Below are positions 7,993-64,000 of a stretch of DNA of 64,000 bases, in pieces (position 1 is the first letter of the stretch; the number at the start of each line of letters is the position of its first letter). Below the pieces are notes generated by a model that searched no databases, was not told where the DNA came from, and was given only the letters and a program-made list of their open reading frames with translations. Source of the stretch: Microglena sp. YARC. Lineage: Eukaryota; Chlorophyta; Chlorophyceae; Chlamydomonadales; Chlamydomonadaceae. The stretch is taken from assembly GCA_022414725.1 (NCBI GenBank), contig CM039463.1, positions 86,629,711 through 86,693,710 of the forward strand, written 5' to 3'. A program made the translations under genes and the position numbers.

Positions 7993-8992
7993 NNNNNNNN
8001 NNNNNNNNNNNNNNNNNNNNNNNNNNNNNNNNNNNNNNNNNNNNNNNNNNNNNNNNNNNNNNNNNNNNNNNNNNNNNNNNNNNNNNNNNNNNNNNNNNNN
8101 NNNNNNNNNNNNNNNNNNNNNNNNNNNNNNNNNNNNNNNNNNNNNNNNNNNNNNNNNNNNNNNNNNNNNNNNNNNNNNNNNNNNNNNNNNNNNNNNNNNN
8201 NNNNNNNNNNNNNNNNNNNNNNNNNNNNNNNNNNNNNNNNNNNNNNNNNNNNNNNNNNNNNNNNNNNNNNNNNNNNNNNNNNNNNNNNNNNNNNNNNNNN
8301 NNNNNNNNNNNNNNNNNNNNNNNNNNNNNNNNNNNNNNNNNNNNNNNNNNNNNNNNNNNNNNNNNNNNNNNNNNNNNNNNNNNNNNNNNNNNNNNNNNNN
8401 NNNNNNNNNNNNNNNNNNNNNNNNNNNNNNNNNNNNNNNNNNNNNNNNNNNNNNNNNNNNNNNNNNNNNNNNNNNNNNNNNNNNNNNNNNNNNNNNNNNN
8501 NNNNNNNNNNNNNNNNNNNNNNNNNNNNNNNNNNNNNNNNNNNNNNNNNNNNNNNNNNNNNNNNNNNNNNNNNNNNNNNNNNNNNNNNNNNNNNNNNNNN
8601 NNNNNNNNNNNNNNNNNNNNNNNNNNNNNNNNNNNNNNNNNNNNNNNNNNNNNNNNNNNNNNNNNNNNNNNNNNNNNNNNNNNNNNNNNNNNNNNNNNNN
8701 NNNNNNNNNNNNNNNNNNNNNNNNNNNNNNNNNNNNNNNNNNNNNNNNNNNNNNNNNNNNNNNNNNNNNNNNNNNNNNNNNNNNNNNNNNNNNNNNNNNN
8801 NNNNNNNNNNNNNNNNNNNNNNNNNNNNNNNNNNNNNNNNNNNNNNNNNNNNNNNNNNNNNNNNNNNNNNNNNNNNNNNNNNNNNNNNNNNNNNNNNNNN
8901 NNNNNNNNNNNNNNNNNNNNNNNNNNNNNNNNNNNNNNNNNNNNNNNNNNNNNNNNNNNNNNNNNNNNNNNNNNNNNNNNNNNNNNNNNNNN
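7993..8992. other. Assembly gap of 1000 N
   Basis: An uninterrupted run of exactly 1000 N. A round number suggests a scaffold gap of nominal size, so true spacing is unknown. Frames running through it are meaningless. Confidence 0.99.
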
Positions 8993-24000: not shown

Positions 24001-27000
24001 CCACCACACCATACAACACCAGTACACCACCACACCATACAACACCAGTACACCACCACACCATACAACACCAGAACACCACCACACCGTACAACACCAG
24101 AACACCACCACACCGTACAACACCAGTACACCACCACACTATACAACACCAGTACACCACCACACCATACAACACCAGTACACCACCACACCATACAACA
24201 TCAGTACACCACCACACCATACAACACCAGTACACCACCACACCATACAACACCAGTACACCACCACACCATACAACATCAGTACACCACCACACCATAC
24301 AACACCAGTACAACACCACACCATACAACACCAGTACACCACCACACCATACAACACCAGTACACCACCACACCATACAACACCAGTACACCACCACACC
24401 ATACAACACCAGTACAACCACCACACCATACAACACCAGTACACCACCACACCATACAACACCAGTACACCACCACACCATACAACACCAGTACACCACC
24501 ACACCATACAACACCAGTACACCACCACACCATACAACATCAGTACACCACCACACCATACAACACCAGTACACCACCACACCATACAACACCAGTACAC
24601 ACCACACCATACAACACCAGTACAACACCATACAACACCAGTACACCACCACACCATACAACAACACCACACCACACCAGTACACTACCGCAACACAAGT
24701 GCACCACCACAACACACCACACCAGTGCACCACACTACGCCAGTATACCAGCACATACACCAGCAAAGGAGGGGACGGCCATGATCAAGTTAGCAGCGGT
24801 ACACCACACCACACCAGTACACCACACCACACAACACCAGCACACGCACCAGCAAAGGAGGGGGCGGCCATGATCAAGTTGGCAGCGGTACACCACGCCA
24901 CACCAGCGGTACAACACACCACACCAGTACACCACACAACACCAGCACACGCACCAGCAAAGGAGGGGGCGGCCATGATCAAGTTAGCAGCGGTCAGGAT
25001 GGTGGCAGGGCGGACCATGGCAGCAATGTCAACCTTTGCATCCTGAAGATACGAGATATAAGATATAAGATATAAGAAAGGGGCAGCCTTTCAATTATAG
25101 GTGGGCACTTAGCGCAGCGAGGGGTGGGGGGTGGGGGGAGAAGGGGGCGTGGGGCCGTGTGTGTAGGGTGGGGAGAAGGGGGGAGAAGAGGGGGGGAGAA
25201 GGGAAACAATCGATGTAATGGTTGTGTGAACAATCAGATACTACAGCGATGTCCACCTTGGCATCCTGAAGTCCAGTGCCTCGTATGTAATCAGTAGTCA
25301 GTGTGAGGGGTCAAGTTTGGTGCGGCGCGAGGTTTAGGGGTGGGAGGTGTAGGGGGTGGGAGGTGTAGGGGGTGGGAGGTGTAGGGGGAGTAGGGGTGGA
25401 AGGTGTAGGGGTGGGAGGTGTAGGGGTGGGAGGTGTAGGGGGAGTAGGGTGGAAGGTGTGGGGGGAGTAGGGGTGGGAGGTGTAGGGGGAGTAGGGGTGC
25501 GAGGTGTAGGGGGAGTAGGGGTGCGAGGTGTAGGGGGAGTAGGGGTGCAAGGTGTAGGGGGTGTAGGGGTGCGAGGAGTTGGGATACGAGGTGCAGGGGT
25601 GCAGGGTGTAGGGGTGTAAGGGTGAGAGGTGCAGAAGTGTGGGGTGCAGGAATGCGTGGTGTAGGGGTGGGAGGTGTAGGGGGTGCAAGGTGTAGGGGGT
25701 GCGAGGTGTAGGGGGAGTAGGGGTGCAAGGTGTAGGGGGAGTAGGGGTGCGAGGTGTAGGGGAAGTAGGGGTGCGAGGTGTAGGGGGAGTAGGGTGCGAG
25801 GTGTAGGGGGAGTAGGGAGTGCGAGGTGTAGGGGGAGTAGGGGTGCAAGGTGTAGGGGTGTAGGGGGTGCGAGGTGTAGGGGGAGTAGGGGTGCGAGGTG
25901 TAGGGGGAGTAGGGGTGCAAGGTGTAGGGGGAGTAGGGGTGCGAGGTGTAGGGGGAGTAGGGGTGCAAGGTGTTGGGGTGTAGGGGGTGCGAGGTGTAGG
26001 GGGAGTTGGGGTGCAAGGTGTAGGGGGAGTAGGGGTGCGAGGTGTAGGGGAGTAGGGGTGCAAGGTGTAGGGGGAGTAGGGGTGCGAGGTGTAGGGGGAG
26101 TAGGGGTGGGAGGTGTAGGGGAAGAAGGAATGCAAGGTGTAAGGGGTGTAAGGGTGCGAGGAGTTGGGATGCGAGGTGTAGGGGGTGCGAGGGTGTAGGG
26201 GGAGTAGGGGTGCAAGGTGAAGGGGGAGTAGGGGTGCGAGGTGTAGGGGGAGTAGGGGTGCGAGGTGTAGGGGGAGTAGAGGTGCAAGGTGTAGGGGTGT
26301 AGGGGTGCGGGGTGTAGGGGGTGCGAGGTGTAGGGGGAGTAGGGGTGCAAGGTGTAGGGGGAGTAGGGGTGCGAGGTGTAGGGGGAGTAGGGGTGGGAGG
26401 TGTAGGGGAAGAAGGAATGCAAGGTGTAGGGGGTGTCAGGGTGCGAGGAGTTGGGATGCGAGGTGTAGGGGGTGCGAGGTGTAGGGGGAGTAGGGGTGCG
26501 AGGTGTAGGGGGAGTAGGGGTGGGAGGTGTAGGGGGAGTAGGGGTGCAAGGTGTAGGGGGAGTAGGGGTGGGAGGTGTAGGGAAGAAGGAATGCAAGGTG
26601 TAGGGGGAGTAGGGGTGCGAGGTGTAGGGGGAGTAGGGGTGGGAGGTGTAGGGGAAGAAGGAATGCAAGGTGTAGGGGGTGTAAGGGTGCGAGGAGTTGG
26701 GATGCGAGGGTGTAGGGGGTGCGAGGTGTAGGGGGAGTAGGGGTGCAAGGTGAAGGGGGAGTAGGGGTGCGAGGTGTAGGGGGAGTAGGGGTGCGAGGTG
26801 TAGGGGGAGTAGGGGTGCAAGGTGTAGGGGGAGTAGGGGTGCGAGGTGTAAGGGGGAGTAGGGGTGCAAGGTGTAGGGGGAGTAGGGGTGCGAGGTGTAG
26901 GGGGAGTAGGGGTGGGAGGTGTAGGGGAAGAAGGGAATGCAAGGTGTAGGGGGTGTCAGGGTGCGAGAGTTGGGATGCGAGGTGTAGGGGGTGCGAGTGT

Positions 27001-39018: not shown

Positions 39019-39932
39019 TTGCGGGTGGACAAGAGAACTTTATCACCAAGGTTGAAGAAAACCTCCGTTCGTCGTTTATCGTAATGGGCTTTCTGCCGAT
39101 CCTGAGCGGCTTGCATGCATGCCTTGCATTGATCTTGTCGTTCAATGTGATCGGCCCACCAATTGTTGGCAGCCGGACATTTCGATTCGACCTCCGCCTT
39201 GAGCGGCGTCGTAGGGTCGTAACCAAGGTACGCCCGAAAGGGGGTGTTTTGAATGGACTCTTGGTAGGAATTGTTGATTGCAAATTCCACAAGCGCCAAG
39301 GACTTATCCCAATCGTCGTGGTACGGCCCCACGTAGTGGCAAATCATGTCCTCGATGACTCGGTTCATGCGTTCCGTCTGACCGTCAGTTTGAGGATGAA
39401 ACGCAGTCGAAAACGCTTGTCGCGTACCCATCAATCGATGGAGAGCCACGCCGAAATGGCCTGTGAATCGCGCATCGCGATCACTGAGGAGTTTCTTTGG
39501 GATACCATGATATCGGATGACACGATTCAGGTATAGGGAAGCGAATTCCTCTGCGTTTATCGTAGTATGACAAGGTTCTACATGAACCATCTTCGACAGT
39601 TTGTCGACGAACACTGCGATGGCATCATGGCCAGAAGAAGTTGGCGGCAGCGCCGTAATAAGGTCCGTGGAGACGCACTCCCAGAATTTCTCAGGAATTT
39701 CCACGGGAACCATGGTACCGTTAGGCTTTGCGTTTCCGGGCTTGTTCGTTTGGCACTTATGGCATTGTTGGACGAAGGCAGTAACATCTGCCGTGACTTT
39801 GGCCCAAGTAAAAGTGCGGGTGACCAGCTCCAATGTTTTGGTGCGACCGCAATGGCCCATGTAAATAGGGTCGTGAGGTTCGCGGATAATATCCAGGCGA
39901 AGTGCCGCGTCGAGGGGGACACACAAAAATTC
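39019..39932 (-). pseudogene. Integrase core (element 2)
   Basis: Begins FLCVPLDAALRLDIIRE. HHCC zinc finger HDPIYMGH...CHKC, then the DDE core: STDLITALP (Asp), LLSDRDARFTG (Asp), FHPQTDGQTERMNRVIED (Glu). It continues seamlessly, in homology, from the RNase H segment that ends at 46488; the 6.55-kb element sits between NKYGRE and FLCVP. Confidence 0.93.
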
Positions 39933-40335
39933 AGAAGGTTGACTCAGATTCCTTACAGTTGCTTTTTCATATTTCCAATACATATAATTTACCCTTAAGG
40001 GTTGAGGAAATTAAGCACATGCAGGCTTCATCATTGTCAGTACTTATATTTGCAAAAGTATGGGGGCCTGCTTGCTGGACATTGAGACACTGCCCGAGAG
40101 GTCCAGCGATCTTTCAGATGGGGCCCCCATTGGTACAAGTGCTAGTAGACATATTTAAGGTGTATGCTGGGCCTTGTAAAGTTTTAGCTTTGAGTGTGAT
40201 ATTTCCCTTAATTAGGGGGTATATCACACCACTAGCTGGCTTTACTGGTCTTATCAGCTTTTACCATTAAATAAAGTCAACTGCACTATCTAGCTTGTAA
40301 GTCCAGACTGTTCAGGTCTGTCTTTGTGCTACTAC
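39933..40335 (-). repeat. Split direct repeat B2 (right terminus)
   Basis: 403 bp, matching 40684-41086 with few differences. Both copies can be read as a 122-137-codon plus-strand frame ending LAGFTGLISFYH, probably fortuitous. Confidence 0.93.
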
Positions 40336-40437
40336 CAATAGAGTCGCTACTGTCAAATAATAACAGTCACTTCCCCTGGGAGGCTCAGGTAGCTTCTGGA
40401 AGATATAACTCCTGTGGGACAGAGGGATGGTGGTGGG

Positions 40438-40683
40438 AACTCGAAATTTGGTTCAGATCAAGGCTCAGCAGCTTGGGGCACCAAGAATTTAGTGCCCCCA
40501 GTGACTGTGCACTTGATTTTATACCGGGCAGGACAGTACTGCTGGGAAAACACTGGCGTTGGTTACTCCTGGTTTTGCCCGGGGGTTTACGGGTATTTGA
40601 AATATGAATGCGTCCTGCGGAATCTTACGTCGCGCGGCTGAATACTCCATTTCACCCACTACTGTGTGGGAAATGCGGCATTC
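40438..40683 (-). repeat. Split direct repeat A2
   Basis: 246 bp, matching A1 at 46242-46487. It adjoins B1 directly, so the A2/B1 join (GCGGCATTCAGACGGTTGAC) reproduces a circle junction, the expected recombinase substrate. Confidence 0.93.
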
Positions 40684-41086
40684 AGACGGTTGACTCAGAT
40701 TCCTTACAGTTGCTTTTTCATATTTCCAATACATATAATTTACCCTTAAGGGTTGAGGAAATTAAGCACATGCAGGCTTCATCATTGTCAGTACTTATAT
40801 TTGCAAAAGTATGGGGGCCTGCTTGCTGGACATTGAGACACTGCCCGAGAGGTCCAGCGATCTTTCAGATGGGGCCCCCATTGGTACAAGTGCTAGTAGA
40901 CATATTTAAGGTGTATGCTGGGCCTTGTAAAGTTTTAGCTTTGAGTGTGATATTTCCCTTAATTAGGGGGTATATCACACCACTAGCTGGCTTTACTGGT
41001 CTTATCAGCTTTTACCATTAAATAAAGTCAACTGCTCTATCTAGCTTGTAAGTCCAGACTGTTCAGGTCTGTCTTTGTGCTACTAC
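40684..41086 (-). repeat. Split direct repeat B1
   Basis: 403 bp, matching B2 at 39933-40335, next to A2 and downstream of the recombinase gene. Confidence 0.93.
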
Positions 41087-41276
41087 TATATGCAAGAGTC
41101 ACTGAAATTTCACACACACGTGCCCTCAGGATAATAAAAATCAGTCCCACATGTAAAGAAAAGGAGTGTAAAGGGGGACTGGGGGAAAGGTGTAGGAGTA
41201 GGAGCATGTAACGGGACAGCAGGCTTGGCTAAGTGATGGGGTATCAAAAGAAGAAGAAGGAAAGGAAAAGCTAGGA

Positions 41277-42248
41277 TCAGAGGCTGGAGGCAAAGTTCAA
41301 CTTGACCGAGAGATCTGGGATCAGATATGCCTTAATGGCATCTGATTTCCATCTACCTTGAGTTCTAATAGTCTCTAGATCTGCCCCATTAGCCCAAGCT
41401 GCTACTACACCTCCCCGTCTGAGGCTGTGCATGGCAAACCTAGCTGGATCTATGTCCAGTTTGGGGTGGGAGTGTGAAATAGCAGTGAGATAAGACTTTA
41501 GTCGATAGGACAAAGCCTGACCTGAAAGAAGGGGGGAGGAAGACAAGCTAAGGGAGTCTAGGTCCCAGGCGGTGATGAGGTGGTCCTCTGGCGTGGCGCC
41601 CTGACGGGTTCTAAGCTGTAAGAGGGCATCTATAATCCTCCTAACTCTAAGTGAGTCCCTACATTGGGCTGGGAGCACTACAGTGGCTCCCTTCCCTTCC
41701 TGGTCTGTTTTAGAGCGCCTGATGTGGACAACTACATGATCCTTCTTAGTCACTACATCTGACAAACGCAAAGCAATAAGCTCACTCCTTCTAAGGAGGC
41801 CAAAGAAACCCATCACTAGCCAAGCTGCGTCTCTAGTAAACAAGTCCTCCATGTGGGGCTGCAGGGTCTTCAGCTTCCTCATGGTCTCCAGACACTTGAT
41901 AATGAGGGACTTACATATGCCCTGCTTGCCAGAGGAGACTCCCTCAGGCCCCTGGAACACCCTGATGGCCTGTGAGAGCTGTCCCACAACACTGGAGTTC
42001 AGAGTGTGAAGGTCCAGTCCCTTAGACCTGTGCCATTCTGCTAGTGCTGACAGGGTTGTTTGAATGGTGGCAGGTTTGTAGTGACCTGCCGCCCAACCCA
42101 TGAACAGCTTTACTAGCGTCAGTGGCACTTGTTCCTTGGGGCCAGGAGGGAGTGCCTCCTGCTCAGTAATTAAGTATACCTCAGCCATGCACCTGGTGTA
42201 ACGCTTAAGAGCACTTGCATAAGTGTCTTGCGAACTGACAGCCAGGGT
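41277..42248 (-). CDS. Tyrosine recombinase
   Basis: Integrates and resolves the circular cDNA by strand exchange at the ATTC junctions (inference from family). The N-terminal core-binding part begins SSQDTYASALKRYTRC upstream of the first ATG (42188); the catalytic domain has RxxxH-R-Y residues at FGLLRRSELIALRL (Arg), HSLRRGG (His, Arg) and GRWKSDAIKAYL (Tyr). The frame is open over about 323 codons to 41277. A TAA at 42249-42251 separates it from the in-frame PHD finger upstream, so it may be translated separately or the stop may be a recent mutation. Confidence 0.94.
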   Translation of the reverse strand, partial: TLAVSSQDTYASALKRYTRCMAEVYLITEQEALPPGPKEQVPLTLVKLFMGWAAGHYKPATIQTTLSALAEWHRSKGLDLHTLNSSVVGQLSQAIRVFQGPEGVSSGKQGICKSLIIKCLETMRKLKTLQPHMEDLFTRDAAWLVMGFFGLLRRSELIALRLSDVVTKKDHVVVHIRRSKTDQEGKGATVVLPAQCRDSLRVRRIIDALLQLRTRQGATPEDHLITAWDLDSLSLSSSPLLSGQALSYRLKSYLTAISHSHPKLDIDPARFAMHSLRRGGVVAAWANGADLETIRTQGRWKSDAIKAYLIPDLSVKLNFASSL

Positions 42249-42251
42249 TTA

Positions 42252-42500
42252 GCCCTCCAGCATCACTAACCTCCTGGCACCTTGCTGGCCTTGGGCGCTA
42301 GTGATGTGGAGGTTGCACTCAATTAAAATGCAGGCTGGGCACTTGAATGTACCACAGGACATGGCATTCCTGCCCAAGCTGAGGCACTGGGGGTGGCTGT
42401 GCTGGTCGCAATTGGTGCACCTAAGAATCCTTCCCTTGGTGCCTTGGCAGATGGTACATCCTATGGTGGTTGGGAGGAAGAAGAAAAGGGGGGGGGGGGG
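42252..42500 (-). CDS. PHD finger segment of Pol
   Basis: Cys-x2-Cys-x9-Cys-x2-Cys-x4-His-x2-Cys-x14-Cys-x2-Cys (CTIC...CTNC DQHSH PQC...CPAC; 42330-42458), the C4HC3 pattern of a PHD finger, between RNase H and recombinase. PHD fingers commonly bind the N-terminal H3 tail. Upstream, a C run and pyrimidine tract ending CCATAG could be a 3' splice site, but phases do not fit as read; homopolymer length errors there may confuse the frame. I have not seen a PHD finger described for this class of element. Confidence 0.82.
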
Positions 42501-42504
42501 TAAG

Positions 42505-43190
42505 TTACTGAGCAGACCTGATCACAATCATGGTGTGTGGAATTGGGCCTGTGGTTTTTCCTGAACTGGGGTCAAGGAAAATCCTGGCGCCCTTAGGGTA
42601 AGTTGCTAGTACCCTAAACTTGGGGTTCTTGCCCCTAAGGTACTTCCTAAACCAAATAGCATCTGGCCATTTTGGCAATAGTGCTGTGCAAATTGTGTCA
42701 GAGGGTGAGGCTACCCAAGCCGCATACAGGAGATCCAGAGTTGTTCCTAATGCAGAGAATGGGATGTTGGCCCAAGACACTTGGCCAGAAAGTGATTCCC
42801 AGTGTGATACAAGTGGGTGTTGGATGGAGAACCATTTTGTGCACCCGTCATGCTTGTTGTACCCATCTGCTGCAGCAAAGCAGTCAATGGTGGCTGGGGG
42901 GTTGTTATGCCTGTCAAAAAAATTGAACATGTAATGGTTGTTGGTGCTGCATGCTTTTCCCCTGCTGGGGGCGTCTGCAGGGTTTAACTCTCCCTTAACA
43001 TGCTTGGCTTTGACAGTGAAACCATACTTAAGGCCTGTGAGTGCCATCTGTGCCAGAGCATCCCTGATGCCTGGTATCCTAGAACCCCCCTTATTCACAG
43101 CTGAAACAGCTTGGACATTGTCCATGTAGCAAAGTACTGACGTTCCTGCCAGTTCATGTGCCCAGTGCTGCAAGCAAATCATGCATGCTT
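42505..43190 (-). CDS. RNase H domain
   Basis: MICLQHWAHELAG...VLCYMDNVQAV (catalytic Asp in MDN), HVKGELNPADAPSRG, then CFAAADGYN and SVWAN-like PF..L..., the usual order in DIRS-type RNase H and its C-terminal extension. The link from the RT frame (ending SYPWP at 43228) is broken by two stops over about 40 bp, so the RNase H start is damaged or lies across an unrecognised intron. Confidence 0.9.
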
Positions 43191-43227
43191 CGAGTTATAG
43201 GATGCCTATATGCACATGTTGCCTGTT

Positions 43228-44300
43228 TTATGGCCAGGGATAAGAGTATGTGTCATCGCCCAAAGTTCCACCTGCACCGAATACCTTGCTGGCATCTGTG
43301 TACATGTGGACCTTGAAGGCTTTACTGTCCACGTGTACATCCTTTCTGGCCAACATGCTTTCATGTACCCCTACCGACTCATGCCACTCCATCTCCAGAG
43401 CCCTGTCCCAAAACTCCAGGTCACTTAGTGTGCCCTGTGTCCAAGGGATTACAGCCTTTAGTTTGTGAGTGGTATGGTTGGTGGTGACAGGATATAAGGC
43501 ATCAAACAGGTGTTGGATGTGCAAGTATCCCCAAGGTGTCACCTTAGACGCCCAGACTAGCTTCCCCACTAGGCATTCAAGTTCTTTCCTTCTGAGGATG
43601 CCTCCCTCCTTCCTTGACTGTAGTGTCTTAAGGACTTCTGCTCTGTACAGTTGCTTCTTGTGGGCCGGGAGGTCCATTTTCAAGAGAGGTGCATCTAGCA
43701 GTAGCCCTAGCACTTCCAGTCTGGTTGTGGGTTGGGTGGCACCTTCATCTTTAGAGGGATTGAACTCTAGTCCTAGCAGTTCAGCTTCTCTGTCCATGAT
43801 CTCGAAGGCCCTCTGCATGTCTACGTGTGTATCAGCCCTGATGGGGTAATCATCCACATAGACATCACAGGTGGCCTTGACACCATGCTCATTGAAACTG
43901 TGGTTGAAAATCAACCTGGAGAAGTTGGTAAACTCACAGAAAAAATGGGGGCTCTGGGCTGTGCCTTGAGGGAGAGCTATCCATCTACCGATTTTACCTG
44001 TCACGGGGTGTCTGAATCCCATGTACCTCCTAGCTGGAGGATGCAGGGAAACATGATAAAATCCATTCGTCAGATCTCTTTTACCCAACATATCTGTTGT
44101 GGTGAGCGTCTTCATGAATGTTTCAGGGGTGGTGAGTGAGCAAGGTAGCTTGTTCATACAACCATTTACCCCAGTGATGGTGGGATCTACTAGAATCCTA
44201 GCCTTGCCATTAGGCTTGATCCTAACCCCGAACGGGTTGATGCAGCTAACAAAGTCTGCCTGGTCCTGATCTGCCTGCAAGAACTCAATCAGGCCAGCTT
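43228..44300 (-). CDS. Reverse transcriptase of the YR element
   Basis: LIEFLQADQDQADFVSCINP, GVRIKPNGKARILVDPT, RDLTNGFYHVSLHP (first Asp), LPQGTAQSPHFF, CDVYVDDYPIRAD (YVDD catalytic pair, near 43850-43860), LGLEFNPSKDE, and the thumb/connection ELECLVGKLVWASKVTPWG. A frame change at about 44300 separates it from the upstream frame 44289-44570 (MGECGNLVDEMYQP...), which may be the Pol N-terminus. Confidence 0.93.
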
Positions 44301-44570
44301 CTCAGCCTTATCTAACTCAGAGACAAGGGGGGGGAGGTTGAGCAAGGCACTGGTGTGGTTGTTCACCTCTATGGGGGCTGGAGGGGTGGTCTTCCATTCC
44401 CAAGAAACAGGGCCTAAGGCTGCTACAGGACAGGGGACTCCTAATTTATTCGCCCAGAATATCCATCTCTCAGCATTCAGCTTGATCCCAGACGAGTTGA
44501 ACCACTTTTCCCTGTCTTCCAAGTCATGGGGTTGGTACATCTCATCCACCAGATTCCCACACTCCCCCAT
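44289..44570 (-). CDS. Probable N-terminal part of Pol
   Basis: 93 codons (GIKLNAERWIFWANKLGVPC...NLPPLVSELDKAEKLA) run to the start of the RT with a one-base shift at about 44300. It starts 40 bp after the Gag stop. No separate domain is recognised; a linker before the RT is the simplest reading. Confidence 0.6.
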   Translation of the reverse strand: MGECGNLVDEMYQPHDLEDREKWFNSSGIKLNAERWIFWANKLGVPCPVAALGPVSWEWKTTPPAPIEVNNHTSALLNLPPLVSELDKAEKLA

Positions 44571-44609
44571 CTCACCTACAATGAAGCAGGGAGGGCCTTG
44601 TTAGAAGGC

Positions 44610-45598
44610 TCACTTCTTGTCATCCCCCTTTGGCGATTTCCTCTGCCTCTTGTTCTTGCCTTTGTAGCATTGCTCAGCCGAGTGGCCTTCAATGCCACAG
44701 TGGCTGCAGCGCACCGGCCTTCCGTCCTTCGCTTCAGCCCGTTCCTTCTGGTAATCCAGGGAACGTCTGATTTGCGGGGCGAGGGCGATGCATGCATCCT
44801 CGAACCTACCCCCCTTAGCCAAGCTTACTAGCTTGTCCCACTGATCGTTAGAAATTTCACCGAAAGGTTTCATTCTTTCGATCAACAGCTCGTGCGCCTT
44901 CTCAATCCCGAGGGCTTTGGTCAGGGCACTCCACTGGACCTCATAGAGGTTGCGGGCAGCCTTGTACTCCCAGAAAGCATAGAAGCAGGTTTTGAAATTG
45001 CCTGCTGCCTGTGCCGCGGTGTACAAGGTGCTCAGGGTCCAAATCGTGTCCTGCATGGACTTGATAAGGTTCCTGGGGGTATCGAACGCGCACAAACCCA
45101 GGGTATTCCACACGATCTCGTCCGGTTTGCCCTCCCCATCGGCGCACTCTTGGACAAGGGCCGAGACTTTCGTCTTGACCTTGCACTGAGCTGTCGATGG
45201 TGAGTTCAGGGCCATGAGTTTATCCAGGAAATCGGCTGGCATCTGGTAGGTCTGGGGATTTGCATGGAACTCCGATAACGCCTGACCACATTTCATGTAG
45301 GTCTGGTGAGATCACATCCCCAGATCCTTGATACCCAGAGCCACTTCGATAGTTTGGTAAAGTTCAGGCCGTTCAGCTCGGAGTTTCTTGAGAGCCCTGG
45401 GGCTAGCAAGTCGATCGTGCAGGTCAACGAGGGCCTGATCCGGAACTTTCGGTAGGTCGACTACTAAGCCTGGCGCTGCCCACTCATCTTTCGATGGGTT
45501 GGGATTGCGGTGCTTTTGAGTGCGATCTTTTTTCGAAGGTCCGTGTGCGTTCGTCGTTCGGTTCGCGGGAACATCGGGTAGGATTTCGACGTGGGGAT
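44610..45598 (-). CDS. Gag exon 2 with CCHC zinc knuckle
   Basis: From acceptor ttcag/ATCCCC the frame reads PHVEILPDVPANRTT...VPDQALVDLHDRLASP..., has one in-frame TGA (45312-45314), then MKCGQALSEFHANPQ... to a C-terminal CSHCGIEGHSAEQC (C-x2-C-x4-H-x4-C nucleocapsid knuckle) and a basic tail. The TGA may be a mutated Trp or Arg codon. The helical middle part is consistent with a capsid domain. Confidence 0.85.
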
Positions 45599-45855
45599 CT
45601 GAACGGACAGGTAGGGGGGGGGGGGGAACGCATGGTTAAAGATCTGGGAAAAAAGGCAATGAACACGGGTGGGTTCTGTAGGGGGATAATGCTAGCACGG
45701 GCAGGGCGACGCAACCTACAGGGCTAACAGGGCTGCTGTGCAAAGGCACTGAGCAGAAAAGGAAGGCAAAAGGAGAACGCGAGGGTCGACTAAGGTCCGC
45801 GGTGCAAAGGGGGGGGGGGGAGAGAGGAAAGAAGACGGGCAAACAATACTCTCAC
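45599..45855 (-). other. Spliceosomal intron in Gag (257 bp)
   Basis: Donor AATG/GTGAGA and acceptor gttcag/ATCCCC give a clean phase-1 join (ERN-D-PHVE). Both flanks are coding and the intron interior is C-run rich with stops. Inferred from frame and splice signals only. Confidence 0.7.
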
Positions 45856-46211
45856 CATTCCTCTCCTTCTTCTTGATGGACGCTTGCAAGTCCTTGATGA
45901 TCCCGTTGGCCTCCACCAACTGGCGCAACAGTTCGGAGTTGACCGAGGAGGCGCGAGCGCTTGGATCCGAGGAGGCGCGAGCGCTTGGATCCAGATGTCA
46001 CAGATCTGGAGGGGAGGGAGTCTCCCGGCTGTGACCCTTGAGGCTTGGAGGAGCCCTTGGTCTTGGCTGGGGCGGTCTTGGCTGGGACGGCCTTTGCTGG
46101 AGCGATCTTGGCCTTCTTGGAGGTCTTGGTAGGAGGCGCGTTGGTCTTCTTGGGTGGGGCGGGCTTTCTGCCGCCGGTCTCCATGCGCGCGGTCTTCTTG
46201 GTGCGGGCCAT
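45856..46211 (-). CDS. Gag exon 1: histone H3-tail-like N-terminus
   Basis: ATG at 46211, 31 bp inside the end of A1. The protein opens MARTKKTARMETGGRKPA; histone H3 opens M-ARTKQTARKSTGGKAPRK, so 10 of the first 13 residues after Met agree, including Lys4, Arg2, Arg8 and the TGG, while Lys9-Ser10 are Met-Glu. A Lys/Ala/Pro/Thr-rich stretch like a linker-histone tail follows (KKAKIAPAKAVPAKTAPAK), then SELLRQLVEANGIIKDLQASIKKKERN, a short coiled coil, just before the donor. One extra base near 45990 (in a GG) puts head and coil in different frames; a 24-bp duplication GGATCCAAGCGC... is adjacent. I call it the start of Gag because of position and splice phase. Confidence 0.75.
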
Positions 46212-46241
46212 GGTAATCGAACCTCGAAATTTGGTAATCGA

Positions 46242-46487
46242 AACTCGAAATTTGGTTCAGATCAAGGCTCAGCAGCTTGGGGCACCAAGAATTTAGTGCC
46301 CCCAGTGACTGTGCACTTGATTTTATACCGGGCAGGACAGTACTGCTTGGAAAACACTGGCGTTGGTTACTCCTGGTTTTGCCCGGGGGTTTACGGGTAT
46401 TTGAAATATGAATGCGTCCTGCGGAATCTTACGTCGCGCGGCTGAATACTCCATTTCACCCACTACTGTGTGGGAAATGCGGCATTC
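46242..46487 (-). repeat. Split direct repeat A1 (left terminus)
   Basis: 246 bp matching A2 (40438-40683), ending ...GGCATTC at the host junction with pol of element 2. A shorter tandem echo (cgaaatttggtaatcgaa) follows it at 46212-46241. Confidence 0.93.
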
Positions 46488-53519: not shown

Positions 53520-56235
53520 ACTGTAGCACCCTACAGCTATTCAGATATAGGCATCTTAGACAAGGCCATATGGACCCTGGCTAAAAAATGCTGTGACCTA
53601 CACCCCTCATTCCCAACTGCTAGTGTCTGCCTCCCCTTGGGACAGGCAGGATTGGGCATCCCCTCCCTAATGGTGGACTATGCTCAAATTACAGCAGCCC
53701 ACCTCACTAGGTCCCTCAACGACACCGGGGAACTAGGCAGGCTAACTAAAGCCCTCCTCCACAAAGAAGCTGCTATGCTCCAGGGTATGGATCCTCTTAC
53801 CTTGCCCAGCCACACACTTCAATACTTTACCCTGGCCAAGCAAATGCACATCCTCAAAAGAGCCTCCATCCAAATCCATATGGAGGACGAAACCCTACTC
53901 AACCCCCTTCAAGACTCCCTCCCGGACATACCCGAACACACCATTCCCCCCAATCTTCTCAAAACTCTCATCCCCTTGGGCATTACTTCCCTAGCTGACA
54001 TTGTGAGCCCTGATGGGACCACAATCATCCCATCCAATACCCTCTCCCACACCTACGGCACAAGAGTCTCCACTAGGCATAAAGTTGCCCTCAACAGACT
54101 CAGCCTACACCTGTGCTCTCCACCCCCACCTAGAAGCCCACCTCAACCCTACTCCTGCCACAGCCCCCTGCCCTTGGCATCGAGGACCCTCCCCATCCAC
54201 CTACGCATCCCCCAACGGCACATTACCAAGTTCTCCACATATACTATCAGCCACCACCTTAACAACTGGGACACAGCCCCCGTACCGCCCCGACCCTTGA
54301 CCCCCAATGCCGGCATCCGTACCCCAACCACAACACAGCCCCCCACGCATAATATCGAGGAGATCCCTGCCTCCAATGCACACATGTGGTGGGCCAGAGA
54401 GTCCTATCTTCACCCCACCAAGTATGCTCAAGCCTGGAGCACTGACCCCAAGATTGCTTGGACTGCCAGAATGCAATTCATCAGAAATGACACCCACAAA
54501 TGTACTGACGCCTCCTACTACAAACACCACACCATCCGTAAGAACAGCCCCCCGACGACCTGGTGTATGCTGTCTCTACCCCAGACCTTCTTGCTCCTCC
54601 AACCCCAGCCAAGCTCCTCCACCTCCTATATGGCAACCAACACAGCCTGACCCACCTCCTGGGCTTCAGAGCCCAAAAGAGGAAGGCTAACGAACCCCGA
54701 GAAACCCCCCATCACAGATATTGGAGGGTCCAGAAAGCCCCATGTACCATTCTCTGCCACCATCTCCTTTGTTACATATCTGCTGGCCTCCCCGTGCATT
54801 CCCACACCTACTCCTCTGCCACCTCCATTGTGGTCACTCGGTCCCCCGTCCATCTCACAGAGGAACAAATCACCCTGCTGGTTGGTCCCACCAGATTCCA
54901 GGAACTCCTCCATGCCTACAACACTGAATCTACCCCCAAAGCCGCCACCCCCTCCATTCCACCCAGACAAGACCTCCACCTCACTAACCTCCAACAACAA
55001 GGACAGTGGGCGGAGGGAGGAGAGTTTGATGCCAAATGGTACAGCGAACTCAGGCAAAACCTCATCATTAGCACGTCAGACCACCACCCAGACTGGGATA
55101 TCCACCCCCCGGCAAATACCACATACAGGCTGGTACACTGAATGACAGATACCACCACCTCCCCCCCCAACTCAACAACGGAGATACCACCTACGTCTAC
55201 TCACCAACAGGCCAATGTGTCGGTCATATACCCCTCTCCCAACTCCACCTCCTCCACCACAGATACCATACCACCAAGGCACACTCTCCCCACCTCTGGA
55301 CCCTCCACATCACAGGAACCTTCGCTGGACACGTAGCCACCCTCCTATCACAGCACAAAGACACTACCATCTCCAATGTCTCCCCTGCCATACACAAATC
55401 TATGCCCACCCTGGGGATGACAACGGACCTTGACACATCACCCCTCCTAATGAGTCCCCACCTCCCCATGGGCAACACCCCCACCCCCATTGGCCAACTG
55501 TTTGGCTTAGGACCCCACTGCTACTCCCAACCTTGGTACGGGGGAGACACACATCTCACCAGCCAGAACCCTGAAGAGGCCCACAAGGCTGTTCGATGGG
55601 CACTAGGCAGTGCCATACATGCTCACACCCCAGATATTCCCGCGTGCACCATCCTCTTGGTCCCACACAAACCCACATATGCCCATAACGCCCTCCTAAA
55701 TCACCCATGGGCTATGGAACTAGCCACTCTGCCTACCAAGGCCAAACCCCTCACCCCCTCCCTAATATGGACGGGGGGCAAACTCACCCCTGCCAAGAGA
55801 CACAGAGGAACCTACAAACTCATTGCCATCTCAAACCCAGCTGGCCATGCCAAGTACCTCCACAACCCACCCACCACATGGGCCCAAACCATGAGGGACA
55901 TGGGGGCCACTTCCATCCCACGACCAGGTCCCCCCCCCTCCCAATTGGGCCTCCCTACCACCCACCTACCCAAGGCACTTAGCTCCCTCCTTAAGACCTG
56001 GGCACAACAACCCACCCCCATGCAGATAGACCCCACACCCATAACACCCCCCGTGCTCCCGTGCACACATGCTATCCTACATACAAGCACCAGGCCTCGC
56101 TCTATACACAGATGGAAGTGCCATCATAGACAAAGAAGGCGTCCTACGCCTAGGGGCAGGCGTATACTCCCCCAGGGCCGCTGCACGTTGCCTCCGCATA
56201 GACCCTGGCGGACAGGGCATCACTGCCGACATTAA
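53520..56235 (+). pseudogene. LINE 1 post-RT region
   Basis: QAGLGIPSL is the motif that commonly follows the RT in LINE Pol proteins. The rest (e.g. YYKHHTIRKN, LLVGPTRFQELLHAYN, DRYHHLPPQLNNGDT, NPEEAHKAVRWALGSA) is conserved between both copies. It is interrupted by at least two frameshifts near 54600 and 55135. Confidence 0.75.
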
Positions 56236-57523
56236 TCGCGCGGAACTCGTGGCAATCCAACAAGCACTCATACACTCCGAAATAGATGAAGAACTCACCA
56301 TCTACTGCGACAGCTTATGCTCCTTGCAGCTCATTAACCTGCACATTTACCGTCCCAGCAGGACCCGGGAAAACAAACACCGCGACCTCCTGCAAGACAT
56401 CGCCATCCACATTATCAACAGACACAACGCTGCTGCTACCACACGCCTGCTTAAGGTCCGATCTCACTCAGGAATCGTAGGGAATGACGAGGCAGACACG
56501 CTCGCGAAAGAAGCAACGACAGGATACAATGTAATTGGGCCAGTTAAAACAGGGGAACATGCGCACCTCAATATGCATTGGCCGTCTGTCCAGCCCCCCA
56601 AATCTATTCATGGGGACCAGCCCCCCCGGCGTCCGGCCAACAATCTCACCAAGGGTATTAAGGCTAACCTCCCCACCCCCCTGCACACCGGGCATGCCAA
56701 CACCACGGGCATATACTCCTCCATGTGGGAGCAAGCCAACCCCTTCCTCCTCCCCCAGGCTAGTAATCGTTTCTGGCAATCCACCGACATCAAATGGTGG
56801 CAAAAAATACAAATCCACAAGGCTAGGTGGGGACGCTTATGGACTAGGAAACTGGCATACAGATACAAACGCCCCTATGGTACCAGCACTAGCCCCCCCT
56901 CTGATGATAACTGCCCTCTTTGTCGCAAAGCACAGGACGGAGCTGGCCATATTCTTGCTGGGTGCAGCCACCCTGTCTTCAAAGGAATGTATATCAACAG
57001 ACATAATAAGGCGGTCCAACTCATCCAAAAGGCAGTAGCCAAAGGAGCTCTGGGGGCTCTCCCCATGTACATGGATGCAGGCACCTGTGAAGCGACATCC
57101 GACATTCCCACGAGGCCCCCAACCACTCTCAAACCCCCTGATCTTCCCCAAGCCACATGGGATAAATACAGGCCTGATCTCCTCCTCATTGACGACGAAT
57201 CCAAACCAAGAAAAGCCTACCTAGTTGAACTGGGCTACTGCTCAGACACTAACCACCACATCAAATTCCAGGAAAAGAGCGTTTAGCATAAGGAGCTCCA
57301 ACGTATCCTTCAACAACAAGGACTCCTTGTCCACTACCTAGTCTTCACAATAGGTACCACTGGTACCATACCAATCACAACTCTTACCAATCTCTCCACC
57401 TTAGGGATCAGTCGCGAACACGTAGACAAACTCATCTCTAAGCTGCACAGAGAATCTATCGCCTCCTGTACCAGCATTCTTGCCATACGTCGCATGAAGG
57501 AGTCCCTCCCGCCTGGAGGGTGA
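56069..57523 (+). pseudogene. LINE 1 RNase H, zinc knuckle and C-terminal domain
   Basis: RNase H with all four acidic residues: LALYTDGSA (Asp), NRAELVAI (Glu), IYCDSLCS (Asp), SHSGIVGNDEADTLA (Asp). Next CPLCRKAQDGAGHILAGC, a CCHC knuckle. Then YRPDLLLIDDES...AYLVELGYCSD...EKSV with a TAG at 57284-57286 (LINE 2 has CAG), continuing to ...KESLPPGG and TGA at 57521. The last block has PD...E-x-G spacing that recalls a PD-(D/E)xK nuclease; this is only a suggestion. Confidence 0.88.
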
Positions 57524-57627
57524 CACTTACTATGTCTGCCATGATGACTTTCCCCAGCTGCGGCGTACGGGAGGGTCCCCTTAACACCACGCCCCTCCAG
57601 GCGTTATCTTTTTTTTTTTATCATGTG

Positions 57628-59659: not shown

Positions 59660-61241
59660 GGTTATTACCAAATACGTATATCGGACGAGGACGCGCCGAA
59701 GACTGCGTTCACTACCCCGATGGGTCAGTTCGAATTTAAAGTCCTTGGGATGGGGTTGGCAAACGCGCCAGCCACGTTCCAAGCAGTCATGAACCAGATA
59801 TTCGCGCCCTACTTGCACAAGTTCGTTGTGGTCTACTTGGACGATATCTTGGTTTAAGGACGCACTCCGGCGGAACACTTGGCCAACTTGGCCACGGTCC
59901 TCCAAGTCCTCCAGGACAACGAATTCTACGCGAAGCTCTCCAAATGTTCATTCAACAAGACAGAGGTTAAATTCCTTGGTCATTACATTGGACGCGACGG
60001 AATTAAAGTTGATCCGAAAAAGGTTAGCACAGTCCGCGACTGGCCTACTCAGAAGACGGCGAAACAAATCGGCTCATTCCTCGGTTTGTGCAATTACTTT
60101 CGCAAGTTTATCCAAGGATATTCATCCCTCGCCGCCCCTCTTCAGACCTTGTCTAACATCAAGGGTGAGCTTGGCCCCTTGTTCAAAAATGAACATCTCG
60201 TCGCATTCGAAGGCCTCAAAGAAGCCTTGCTTTCCGCCCCAGTCCTCGCACTTCTGGATTTTAGCAAACCATTCGAAGTCATTACTGACGCATCCTTACT
60301 TGGTACAGGCGCGGTGCTCTTACAAGATAAACACCCCGTCGCCTTCGCCAGCAAAAAGTATATCCCAGCGGAGCTGAACTATACAACGACTGAACAAGAA
60401 ATGCTAGCGATCGTCCACGCGTTGACCGAATGGCGGGGCTATCTCAAAGGCTCCCACATGACGTTGGTCACCGACCATAATCCGCTCACATACTTCGATA
60501 CCAAAGCTGTCCTTTCCCGACGCATGGGTCGATGGCAGGAGGACCTCGCGCCCTTTAGCTATACTTGGGAGTATCGCGCTGGTCGCAATAATATGGCTGA
60601 CCCGATTAGTCGTAACCCCAACCTCTCCGCCCCCGCCGACGTCGCGGTAGCGCACCAGCTGTTGGTGTTCTCGCTCTTGGTCAGCGAATGTCGTCCTCGA
60701 TCAAGGAAACCTCGCCCTGTTGCGTTCGGTCCCACGGTCATTGGGGTCCCACCCCGCCCTCCAACGGTCATGCCCGCACCCTCGGTGCCGGTCAAAGAAA
60801 CGCGACGACGCAGACGCCCGATGCCTTTGGCGTCGACTCCCTCCTCTCTCTCCATCATGGATCGAATTTTGGCTGGATACAAAACGGACTCTAACTTCAC
60901 GCCAGGCTGTAAGCGCCTCCGTGATAAATTTTCCAGAAACGGGGATTGGTTCAAGAAGAACAAATACGGCCGCGAATTTTGGTGCGTCCCTCTTGACGCA
61001 GCTCTTCGCCTGGATATTATCCGCGAAGCTCACGATCCGGTTTACATGGGCCATTGCGGTCGCACCAAAACGTTGGAACTAGTCACGCGCACGTTTACTT
61101 GGGCCAAAGTTACGGCTGATGTGACTGCCTTCGTCCAACAGTGCCATAGGTGCCAAACAAACAAACCCGGCAACGCTAAGCCGAACGGTACCATGGTGCC
61201 CGTGGAAATTCCAGACAAATTCTGGGAGTGCCTCTCCACAG
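59660..61241 (+). pseudogene. RT palm, RNase H and integrase start of element 3
   Basis: [32 protein letters not shown] then a TAA in place of Tyr (near 59856), then open from 59879: connection, RNase H (FEVITDASLLGTG, TTEQEMLAIVHAL, VTDHNPLTYF), uninterrupted NKYGREFWCVPLDAALR (the empty site of the tyrosine-recombinase element) and the HHCC finger, ending at WECLSTE. Confidence 0.92.
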
Positions 61242-64000
61242 AAAAAAAAAAAAAGATAACGCCTGGAGGGGCGTGGTGTTAAGGGGACCCTCCCGTACGC
61301 CGCAGCTGGGGAAAGTCACCATGGCAGACATAGTAAGTGTCACCCTCCAGGCGGGAGGGACTCCTTCATGCGACGTGTGGCAAGAATGCTGGTACAGGAG
61401 GCGATAGATTCTCTGTGCAGCTTAGAGATGAGTTTGTCTACGTGTTCGCGACTGATCCCTAAGGTGGAGAGATTGGTAAGAGTTGTGATTGGTATGGTAC
61501 CAGTGGTACCTATTGTGAAGACTAGGTAGTGGACAAGGAGTCCTTGTTGTTGAAGGATACGTTGGAGCTCCTTATGCTGAACGCTCTTTTCCTGGAATTT
61601 GATTTGGTGGTTAGTGTCTGAGCAGTAGCCCAGTTCAACTAGGTAGGCTTTTCTTGGTTTGGATTCGTCGTCAATGAGGAGGAGATCAGGCCTGTATTTA
61701 TCCCATGTGGCTTGGGGAAGATCAGGGGGTTTTGAGAGTGGTTGGGGGCCTCGTGGGAATGTCGGATGTCGCTTCACAGGTGCCTGCATCCATGTACATG
61801 GGGAGAGCCCCCAGAGCTCCTTTGGCTACTGCCTTTTGGATGAGTTGGACCGCCTTATTATGTCTGTTGATATACATTCCTTTGAAGACAGGGTGGCTGC
61901 ACCCAGCAAGAATATGGCCAGCTCCGTCCTGTGCTTTGCGACAAAGAGGGCAGTTATCATCAGAGGGGGGGCTAGTGCTGGTACCATAGGGGCGTTTGTA
62001 TCTGTATGCCAGTTTCCTAGTCCATAAGCGTCCCCACCTAGCCTTGTGGATTTGTATTTTTTGCCACCATTTGATGTCGGTGGATTGCCAGAAACGATTA
62101 CTAGCCTGGGGGAGGAGGAAGGGGTTGGCTTGCTCCCACATGGAGGAGTATATGCCCGTGGTGTTGGCATGCCCGGTGTGCAGGGGGGTGGGGAGGTTAG
62201 CCTTAATACCCTTGGTGAGATTGTTGGCCGGACGCCGGGGGGGCTGGTCCCCATGAATAGATTTGGGGGGCTGGACAGACGGCCAATGCATATTGAGGTG
62301 CGCATGTTCCCCTGTTTTAACTGGCCCAATTACATTGTATCTGTCGTTGCTTCTTTCGCGAGCGTGTCTGCCTCGTCATTCCCTACGATTCCTGAGTGAG
62401 ATCGGACCTTAAGCAGGCGTGTGGTAGCAGCAGCGTTGTGTCTGTTGATAATGTGGATGGCGATGTCTTGCAGGAGGTCGCGGTGTTTGTTTTCCCGGGT
62501 CCTGCTGGGACGGTAAATGTGCAGGTTAATGAGCTGCAAGGAGCATAAGCTGTCGGAGTAGATGGTGAGTTCTTCATCTATTTCGGAGTGTATGAGTGCT
62601 TGTTGGATTGCCACGAGTTCCGCGCGATTGATGTCGGCAGTGATGCCCTGTCCGCCAGGGTCTATGCGGAGGCAACGTGCAGCGGCCCTGGGGGAGTATA
62701 CGCCTGCCCCTAGGCGTAGGACGCCTTCTTTGTCTATGATGGCACTTCCATCTGTGTATAGAGCGAGGCCTGGTGCTTGTATGTAGGATAGCATGTGTGC
62801 ACGGGAGCACGGGGGGTGTTATGGGTGTGGGGTCTATCTGCATGGGGGTGGGTTGTTGTGCCCAGGTCTTAAGGAGGGAGCTAAGTGCCTTGGGTAGGTG
62901 GGTGGTAGGGAGGCCCAATTGGGAGGGGGGGGACCTGGTCGTGGGATGGAAGTGGCCCCCATGTCCCTCATGGTTTGGGCCCATGTGGTGGGTGGGTTGT
63001 GGAGGTACTTGGCATGGCCAGCTGGGTTTGAGATGGCAATGAGCTTGTAGGTTCCTCTGTGTCTCTTGGCAGGGGTGAGTTTGCCCCCCGTCCAGATTAG
63101 GGAGGGGGTGAGGGGTTTGGCCTTGGTAGGCAGAGTGGCTAGTTCCATAGCCCATGGGTGATTTAGGAGGGCGTTATGGGCATATGTGGGTTTGTGTGGG
63201 ACCAAGAGGATGGTGCACGCGGGAATATCTAGGGTGTGAGCATGTATGGCACTGCCTAGTGCCCATCGAACAGCCTTGTGGGCCTCTTCAGGGTTCTGGC
63301 TGGTGAGATGTGTGTCTCCCCCGTACCAAGGTTGGGAGTAGCAGTGGGGTCCTAAGCCAAACAGTTGGCCAATGGGGGTGGGGGTGTTGCCCATGGGGAG
63401 GTGGGGACTCATTAGGAGGGGTGATGTGTCAAGGTCCGTTGTCATCCCCAGGGTGGGCATAGCTTTGTGTATGGCAGGGGAGACATTGGAGATGGTAGTG
63501 TCTTTGTGCTGTGATAGGAGGGTGGCTACGTGTCCAGCGAAGGTTCCTGTGATGTGGAGGGTCCAGAGGTGGGGAGAGTGTGCCTTGGTGGTATGGTATC
63601 TGTGGTGGAGGAGGTGGAGTTGGGAGAGGGGTATATGACCGACACATTGGCCTGTTGGTGAGTAGACGTAGGTGGTGTCTCCGTTGTTGAGTTGGGGGGG
63701 GAGGTGGTGGTACCTGTCATTCAGTGTACCAGCCTGTATGTGGTATTTGCCGGGGGGGTGGATATCCCAGTCTGGGTGGTGGTCTGACGTGCTAATGATG
63801 AGGTTTTGCCTTAGTTCGCTGTACCATTTGGCATCAAACTCTCCTCCCTCCGCCCACTGTCCTTGTTGTTGGAGGTTAGTGAGGTGGAGGTCTTGTCTGG
63901 GTGGAATGGAGGGGGTGGCGGCTTTGGGGGTAGATTCAGTGTTGTAGGCATGGAGGAGTTCCTGGAATCTGGTGGGACCAACCAGCAGGGTGATTTGTTC
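61242..64000 (-). mobile_element. LINE 2, inverted copy, runs off the window
   Basis: Begins at its 3' tail (A run on the plus strand, 61242-61254, then GATAACGCCTGG) and continues leftward in the coding sense to the window edge. It is nearly identical to LINE 1 (for example identical RNase H and knuckle), but has CAG where LINE 1 has a premature TAG and a frameshift near 61735. Its 5' end and target duplication lie outside. Confidence 0.92.
61340..62794 (-). pseudogene. LINE 2 RNase H, knuckle and C-terminal domain
   Basis: LALYTDGSAIIDKEG, NRAELVAI, IYSDSLCS, GNDEADTLA, then after a frameshift near 62335 CPLCRKAQDGAGHILAGC and, after another near 61735, YRPDLLLIDDES...VELGYCSDTNHQIKFQEKSVQHKEL...KESLPPGG and stop. 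The C-terminus is longer by about 79 residues than the stop in LINE 1 allows. Confidence 0.88.

Follow-up and report, generated by a model that had tools for sequence, protein, structure and literature searches.

An H3-like Gag start and a PHD finger beside the recombinase point to a possible docking tail in an algal tyrosine-recombinase retrotransposon

Why would the capsid gene of a retrotransposon open like a histone? The question is raised by a locus of the green alga Microglena sp. YARC, in a stretch of 64,000 nucleotides (hereafter the window; assembly GCA_022414725.1, contig CM039463.1, positions 86,629,711 to 86,693,710 of the forward strand). A previous sequence-only reading had proposed that the Gag of a tyrosine-recombinase element starts there with a mimic of the histone H3 tail. 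The minus strand at 46211-45856 encodes MARTKKTARMETGG..., with the H3-like residues directly after the Met. Coordinate 45856 is the inferred boundary of the first exon; the open reading frame itself runs to 45852, and its opening translation in the program-made list of open reading frames (46211-45852, minus strand) is MARTKKTARMETGGRKPAPP. Gag residues 2-14, ARTKKTARMETGG, are identical to those of H3, ARTKQTARKSTGG, at 10 of 13 positions, the three changes being Q5K, K9M, and S10E in H3 numbering. The probability of at least 10 identities in this fixed register is 1.4e-8 under the composition of Gag residues 15-77 and 5e-10 under rough average residue frequencies, values that apply to one comparison and follow a first reading that had scanned the whole window. 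The window has a single match to the degenerate pattern for MARTKxTAR, and 100 shuffles gave none. The claimed likeness is real in the sense that defines an H3 tail mimic, i.e., a same-register match beyond chance. It is also short, since clear similarity to H3 ends at H3 residue 13. A sequence search of the PDB with a related open reading frame (P0002) returned seven sequences at E ≤10, four of which match its N-terminus; all four are H3 chains, with weak E-values (0.36-1.7). A Pfam search yielded no match to histones.

The H3-like frame belongs to a retrotransposon of about 6.56 kb that encodes a tyrosine recombinase and has split direct repeats in the order A1 ... B1 A2 B2 (Table 1), the layout given for PAT- and Ngaro-type elements in passages of PMC6681497 and PMC3266345. 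Its genes follow each other on the minus strand as gag, reverse transcriptase, RNase H/methyltransferase-like frame, and tyrosine recombinase. We call the element PAT-like on the basis of layout and domains (split repeats, reverse transcriptase, recombinase); gag, reverse transcriptase, recombinase, and repeat order are likewise found in PAT, TOC, and Kangaroo of the order DIRS, as described in these passages. The PHD finger before the recombinase and the H3-like Gag start, which differ from those descriptions, appear to set the element apart from its PAT-like relatives. A Pfam search of 42505-43182 gave no match, including none for a methyltransferase-like domain after the RNase H. The recombinase shows the R, HxxR, Y pattern by eye; its PF00589 score of 23.1 bits lies under the curated cut-off of 27.1, and its matches to Cre structures are weak (E of 0.19 and above). 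It has 33 near-full-length matches at 93-100% identity in its own genome, counting the window copy. Many other loci of this genome match only the last 87 recombinase residues, at 90-95% (e.g., C2:55476249, C2:55481841, and C2:55484635); the rest of the recombinase is there about 51-62% identical or absent from the listing, which looks as though the 3' part were common to, or captured by, a separate family.

Table 1. Features of the retrotransposon and their positions in the window.
Feature	Position	Strand	Basis or remark
Whole tyrosine-recombinase retrotransposon, ~6.56 kb	39929..46487	-	Split repeats; empty site in a Ty3 paralogue
Repeat A1 (5' end)	46242..46487	-	1 mismatch in 246 nt against A2
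H3-tail-like block, Gag residues 2-14 (ARTKKTARMETGG)	46170..46208	-	Translation, copies, comparison with H3
gag exon 1, with the H3-like start, the Lys/Ala/Pro tail and, judged by eye, a coiled-coil-like segment	45856..46211	-	Frameshifted in window copy
Inferred gag intron, GT...AG	45599..45855	-	Comparison of copies
gag exon 2, with CCHC zinc knuckle CSHCGIEGHSAEQC and, judged by position, a capsid-like part	44610..45598	-	In-frame stop in window copy
Reverse transcriptase frame	43228..44280	-	PF00078, E 8e-11, 42.5 bits
RNase H/putative methyltransferase-like frame	42505..43182	-	By eye and position
PHD finger (C4HC3), recombinase frame, just upstream	42330..42458	-	PF00628, 24.3 bits; a stop separates it from the recombinase in window copy
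Tyrosine recombinase, from first ATG	41277..42188	-	PF00589, E 7e-5
Repeat B1	40680..41086	-	2 mismatches in 407 nt against B2
Repeat A2	40438..40683	-	Pairs with A1; 4-nt overlap with B1
Repeat B2 (3' end)	39929..40335	-	Pairs with B1

The insertion lies in the pol region of a chromodomain-bearing Ty3/gypsy element. A second Ty3 copy in the window provides the empty site (60974-60977), and only a 4-nt junction is common to both; this paralogous comparison gives no long target-site duplication. The chromodomain (PF00385, 38491-38892) lies at the end of the host Ty3 element and is the second histone-reader-type module of this nest of transposons. A partial Ty3 copy is flanked by an inverted repeat of 2.77 kb (54863-57627 and 61237-64000, 99.3% identical), which holds an RNase H-like frame recognised by eye.

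The H3-like block had been taken for the start of Gag, and the comparison of copies supports this: it appears to open the first exon of a spliced gag gene. Across the 11 other copies examined, a GT donor closes exon 1, and the AG acceptor is 231-273 nt further on. The spliced frame is open over 443 aa in four of these copies, with introns of 254, 231, 237, and 250 nt, i.e., of lengths that differ modulo 3. The same junction is found in 3 of the 13 EukProt models that reach exon 1 (P0005, P0008, and P0014); the other models differ. Once joined, Gag runs from the H3-like start through a Lys/Ala/Pro tail, a coiled-coil-like segment, and a capsid-like part (both by eye) to a CCHC knuckle of pattern C-x2-C-x4-H-x4-C, which in P0011 matches zf-CCHC below threshold (E 0.82). 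The window copy is broken: a local duplication or indel shifts the frame after about residue 77, and further stops lie in gag exon 2 and between the PHD finger and the recombinase. A PADLOC scan of one Gag model gave no match.

We used the copies in the host genome (568 Mb in 2390 contigs, with about 50 element copies) to analyse the conservation of the Gag start. The search with the exon-1 protein returned 100 matches, often two per copy. We aligned 53 rows, made of the window and 52 fetched loci; at least three further weak genomic places lie beyond these loci. Forty-two rows were readable in frame, some of them cut ahead of their first frameshift. The 11 dropped rows (L048, L051, L057, L058, L065-L068, and L070-L072) are mostly frameshifted at the start; L065 begins with MARTKKTARMETGGRKPAHP and L066 with MACTKNLARMATWGRKPVPP. 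Because only in-frame rows were retained, the absence of indels in the H3-like block carries no weight. The position of Lys9 is Met in 42/42 rows, that of Lys4 is Lys in 40/42, and that of Arg8 (Arg9 of Gag) is Arg in 39/42; the retention of Lys4 and Met9 is thus supported among the copies of this genome. Residues 2-14 are identical in 32 of the 42 rows and residues 1-20 in 29.

The diversity at first, second, and third codon positions is 0.022, 0.017, and 0.100 in codons 2-20, where the third is about five times either of the others. It is 0.073, 0.056, and 0.076 in codons 21-52; 0.051, 0.036, and 0.047 in codons 53-82; and 0.072, 0.023, and 0.059 in codons 83-114. In a tree of 37 of the 42 rows, the internal branches have no nonsynonymous and one synonymous change in codons 2-14 (10 and 8 at the tips), and 12 and 7 in codons 21-52. 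The zero compares with 3.4 nonsynonymous changes expected (P 0.034). None of the 19 widely shared nonsynonymous variants falls in codons 2-14 (P 0.098). The rough dN/dS is 0.38 for codons 2-14, 0.13 for codons 15-20, 0.66 for codons 21-52, 0.71 for codons 53-82, and 0.24 for the coiled-coil part (codons 83-114). On these rough values the constraint on the block exceeds that on the following tail but not that on the coiled coil. The contrast between regions reaches a Fisher p of 0.048 for codons 2-20 against 21-82, of 0.14 for 2-20 against 21-114, and of 0.30 for 2-14 against 21-82. We conclude, with moderate strength, that the H3-like block seems to be under constraint, though not uniquely so. 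The sequence-only reading had proposed a dN/dS below 1 across related algal genomes as a check for function; within this genome the value for codons 2-14 is 0.38, the tests are moderate, and the coiled coil is equally constrained.

Met1 has the context ACCATGG in 38 of 41 rows of the genome. Thirteen EukProt models reach the region: nine start at Met1 and four (P0005, P0006, P0013, and P0015) at Met10. The latter would fit a scenario in which Met10 is retained because translation can also begin there, with the H3-like residues 2-9 added upstream as a short extension. Set against it are the majority of the models, the context of Met1, and the diversity of codons 2-9, which vary mainly at third positions (0.012/0.041/0.105); we regard it as very improbable, and the reading of Gag from Met1 is supported. 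Three protein searches for relatives beyond this species gave, respectively, three short metagenome open reading frames, 17 EukProt proteins, and again three of those 17, the two EukProt results coming from only about 8000 scored candidates. By eye, P0008, P0011, and P0018 match the genomic copies L039, L042, and L062, and the EukProt models look like products of the same species; the metagenome frames also resemble copies of this genome. Owing to this resemblance we did not take either set as independent. A search of viral contigs gave no relatives.

How old is the H3-like start? A sister element, whose recombinase is 84% identical, encodes a homologous Gag that has its donor site in the corresponding position; this Gag opens MTRNTQKTRVSRSKAPKPAPKPAKK, without the H3-like start. 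A second sister copy opens likewise and a third has no readable start, i.e., the H3-like start is absent in 2/2 readable copies. It is thus specific to one lineage. The occurrence of other full-length copies without the H3-like start had been named as an observation that would speak against the mimic, and it was found in part: the start is retained within the lineage and missing from the sister Gag. At the place predicted for gag in four other elements (L077 and L079-L081) there was no gag; in two of them a gag lies nearer to the recombinase.

The sister also bears on the possibility that there is no H3-specific function at all. A basic Gag tail, useful for nucleic-acid binding or nuclear import, could have drifted into an H3-like sequence, the constraint acting on charge, initiation, or RNA. 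The start of the sister Gag, MTRNTQKTRVSRSK, is equally basic and matches H3 at 4/13 positions (probability of four or more matches about 0.04) and the window Gag at 2/13. The Lys/Ala/Pro-rich tail that comes next also fits this scenario, as do the moderate selection tests and the constraint on the coiled coil. However, drift accounts poorly for 10 of 13 identities in the exact register (P about 1e-8 per comparison), and the uncharged Thr, Ala, Met, and Gly are retained along with the basic residues. We consider such a drifted tail a tentative possibility, on the unlikely side.

A captured histone exon had been suggested as a possible origin. The codons do not favour recent capture from a host H3 gene: in a comparison with 12 of about 100 host H3 genes, the codon is the same at 3-6 of the 10 shared residues, where codon usage by itself predicts 4.2. 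This lack of excess, together with the end of the similarity at H3 residue 13, speaks against the suggestion. We also discarded as donors the host H3 variants, because the seven variant genes (L082-L088) keep Lys9 and lack GG at residues 12-13. These unusual variants, read at seven loci dispersed over several contigs, open MAR[IV]KQ[TI]ARKST[CW]SK... and are changed at H3 residues 3 and 12-13 with Lys9 intact. Of the 150 H3 matches scored (from 531 first-look candidates), about 100 are canonical-like, at 96-98% identity, and about 25 among the matches listed are 80-88% identical to canonical H3. At L009 and L018 an H4 gene adjoins H3 on the opposite strand.

The second unusual feature of the element, on which the sequence-only reading was silent, is on its recombinase. 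The frame extends upstream into CTICQGTKGRILRCTNCDQHSHPQCLSLGRNAMSCGTFKCPAC (42458-42330), a PHD finger of the C4HC3 type. The 85-aa fragment scores 24.3 bits with PF00628 (cut-off 24), and the finger within the 406-aa frame of another copy scores 21.8 bits, under the cut-off. In sequence and profile searches, its best PDB matches are PHD fingers of KDM5D, KMT2D, KMT2C, and KDM5A/B, followed by weaker ones to AIRE, BHC80 (PHF21A), BAZ2B, and CHD4. Fingers of the KDM5, AIRE, and BHC80 type read A1-R2-T3-K4 of H3, several of them on the unmodified N-terminus. Well-studied readers of H3K4 have acidic residues and an aromatic cage, which by eye the finger of the element lacks. Of three other copies read, two have an uninterrupted frame across finger and recombinase (406 and 429 codons), and a stop interrupts the third further along. 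All eight zinc ligands are intact in the six other loci that we compared (L074-L076 and L090-L092). Three of these belong to other lineages, with recombinases 78-84% identical to that of the element: L090 (26.1 bits) and L091 (24.0 bits) come from the sister lineage, L092 (22.5 bits, under the cut-off) from a third one. Since L090 is the sister element whose Gag is without the H3-like start, the finger either did not arise for the Gag tail or works without it. Its presence in three lineages, sister included, suggests that the reader-like module is common to the clade and that the mimic is newer or more easily lost.

Histone-reader-type domains on integration enzymes are also found in the chromoviruses of the Ty3/gypsy group, where the domain is a chromodomain instead of a PHD finger. 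Chromodomains read methylated Lys, and we know of no Gag mimic in chromoviruses. PHD fingers occur in mobile elements of other classes, namely in ORF1 of CR1/L2 LINEs, for which passages of PMC4120745 propose a targeting role, and in the Ginger1 transposase (PMC2836005); the passages concerned do not describe either element as carrying an H3-like peptide too. Neither PHD nor histone appears as a word in the main text of two DIRS surveys (PMC3266345 and PMC3783388), and we found no paper joining PHD finger, retrotransposon, and tyrosine recombinase in the open-licence literature.

What could the two features do together? The copies contain an H3-like tail, conserved among them, on a spliced Gag, and a PHD finger in one frame with the recombinase. 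Because a single element encodes an H3-like Gag end and, on its recombinase, a fold of the H3-reader type, we favour the reading that Gag displays an H3-tail-like docking peptide for a PHD-type module, with the element's own finger as the leading partner. We give it a probability of about one in three. Met before Ala is removed, and the initiator Met of Gag would be lost in this way, leaving a free Ala-Arg-Thr-Lys end that could be presented on the many Gag copies of a particle. A PHD-type reader of H3 tails would bind this end, the simplest candidate being the finger on the recombinase. The tail might then draw the recombinase, with the cDNA, into or onto the Gag particle. In the nucleus, the finger could release the Gag tail, bind nucleosomal H3 in its place, and in this way select the site of insertion. 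That one retrotransposon would hold both halves of a histone-code interaction, used as a lock-and-key for packaging and then traded for nucleosomal H3, is a more speculative extension, which we think unlikely though worth stating. The docking peptide is favoured by the start of the block at residue 2 behind ACCATGG, by the conservation of the block among the copies with variation mainly at third codon positions, and by the finger that is in frame with the recombinase of the same element. Against it stand the sister, with a finger and no tail, the missing acidic and cage residues, the lower score of the finger in the 406-aa context, and selection evidence of moderate strength, to which the coiled coil shows a parallel.

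The reader could instead be a host protein. The tail would then be a mimic aimed at host readers or writers of the H3 tail other than H3K9 methyltransferases, such as K4 methyltransferases, host PHD proteins, or remodellers, and might tether Gag or pre-integration complexes to chromatin or titrate silencing factors. The conservation data are the same as for a docking tail, and ARTK-x-TAR is the part of H3 that many host proteins read. Yet no host partner is known, and the element already has a PHD finger of its own. A host-directed role is in our view doubtful, if conceivable.

Another host-directed scenario had been put forward for the Met itself: as in H3K9M, Met at the position of Lys9 would trap an H3K9 methyltransferase and let the element escape silencing. 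The conservation of Met10 in all 42 rows, and of Arg9 in 39, goes in this direction. There are precedents in passages of the literature, as H3K9M traps Clr4 (PMC5030085) and EZHIP inhibits PRC2 by a mechanism like that of H3 K27M (PMC6513997). However, the former concerns H3 in chromatin, not a capsid protein (PMC5030085). Moreover, the position of Ser10 is Glu in Gag, and phosphorylation of Ser10 significantly lowers the binding of the Clr4 SET domain to the H3K9M peptide (PMC5030085); by analogy, Glu may act like phospho-Ser. We therefore disfavour the trap, which we deem improbable: the conserved Met stands, and its interpretation is weakened by the Glu that follows it.

Histone mimics, K-to-M mimics, and PHD fingers of transposons are already known. 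The NS1 protein of influenza is a histone mimic. Like the Gag start, H3K9M and EZHIP present an H3-like peptide in which Met replaces a methylated Lys, EZHIP being a non-histone protein; in the passages of PMC6513997 EZHIP acts on PRC2 as H3 K27M does, whereas the Gag resembles the free N-terminus of H3 and has Glu after the Met. Among the open-licence literature matches listed, we noticed no described case of a Gag that mimics the H3 tail. The docking peptide that we favour may mean that the element uses histone language to link its components to each other or to attach to chromatin. To our knowledge, it is an open question by which means tyrosine-recombinase retrotransposons collect their recombinase and select sites for insertion. 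An element whose Gag supplies an H3-like ligand and whose recombinase bears a reader fold of the H3 type would offer a simple answer to it. If the reader were a host protein, this would be a case of histone mimicry by the capsid protein of a retrotransposon.

Elsewhere in the window, we observed long arrays of tandem repeats at 23530-27378, one of them with steps of about 26 nt according to the offsets in a self-comparison. A run of 1000 N at 7993-8992, deduced from the count of N and a split self-match, corresponds to an assembly gap or to a masked stretch.
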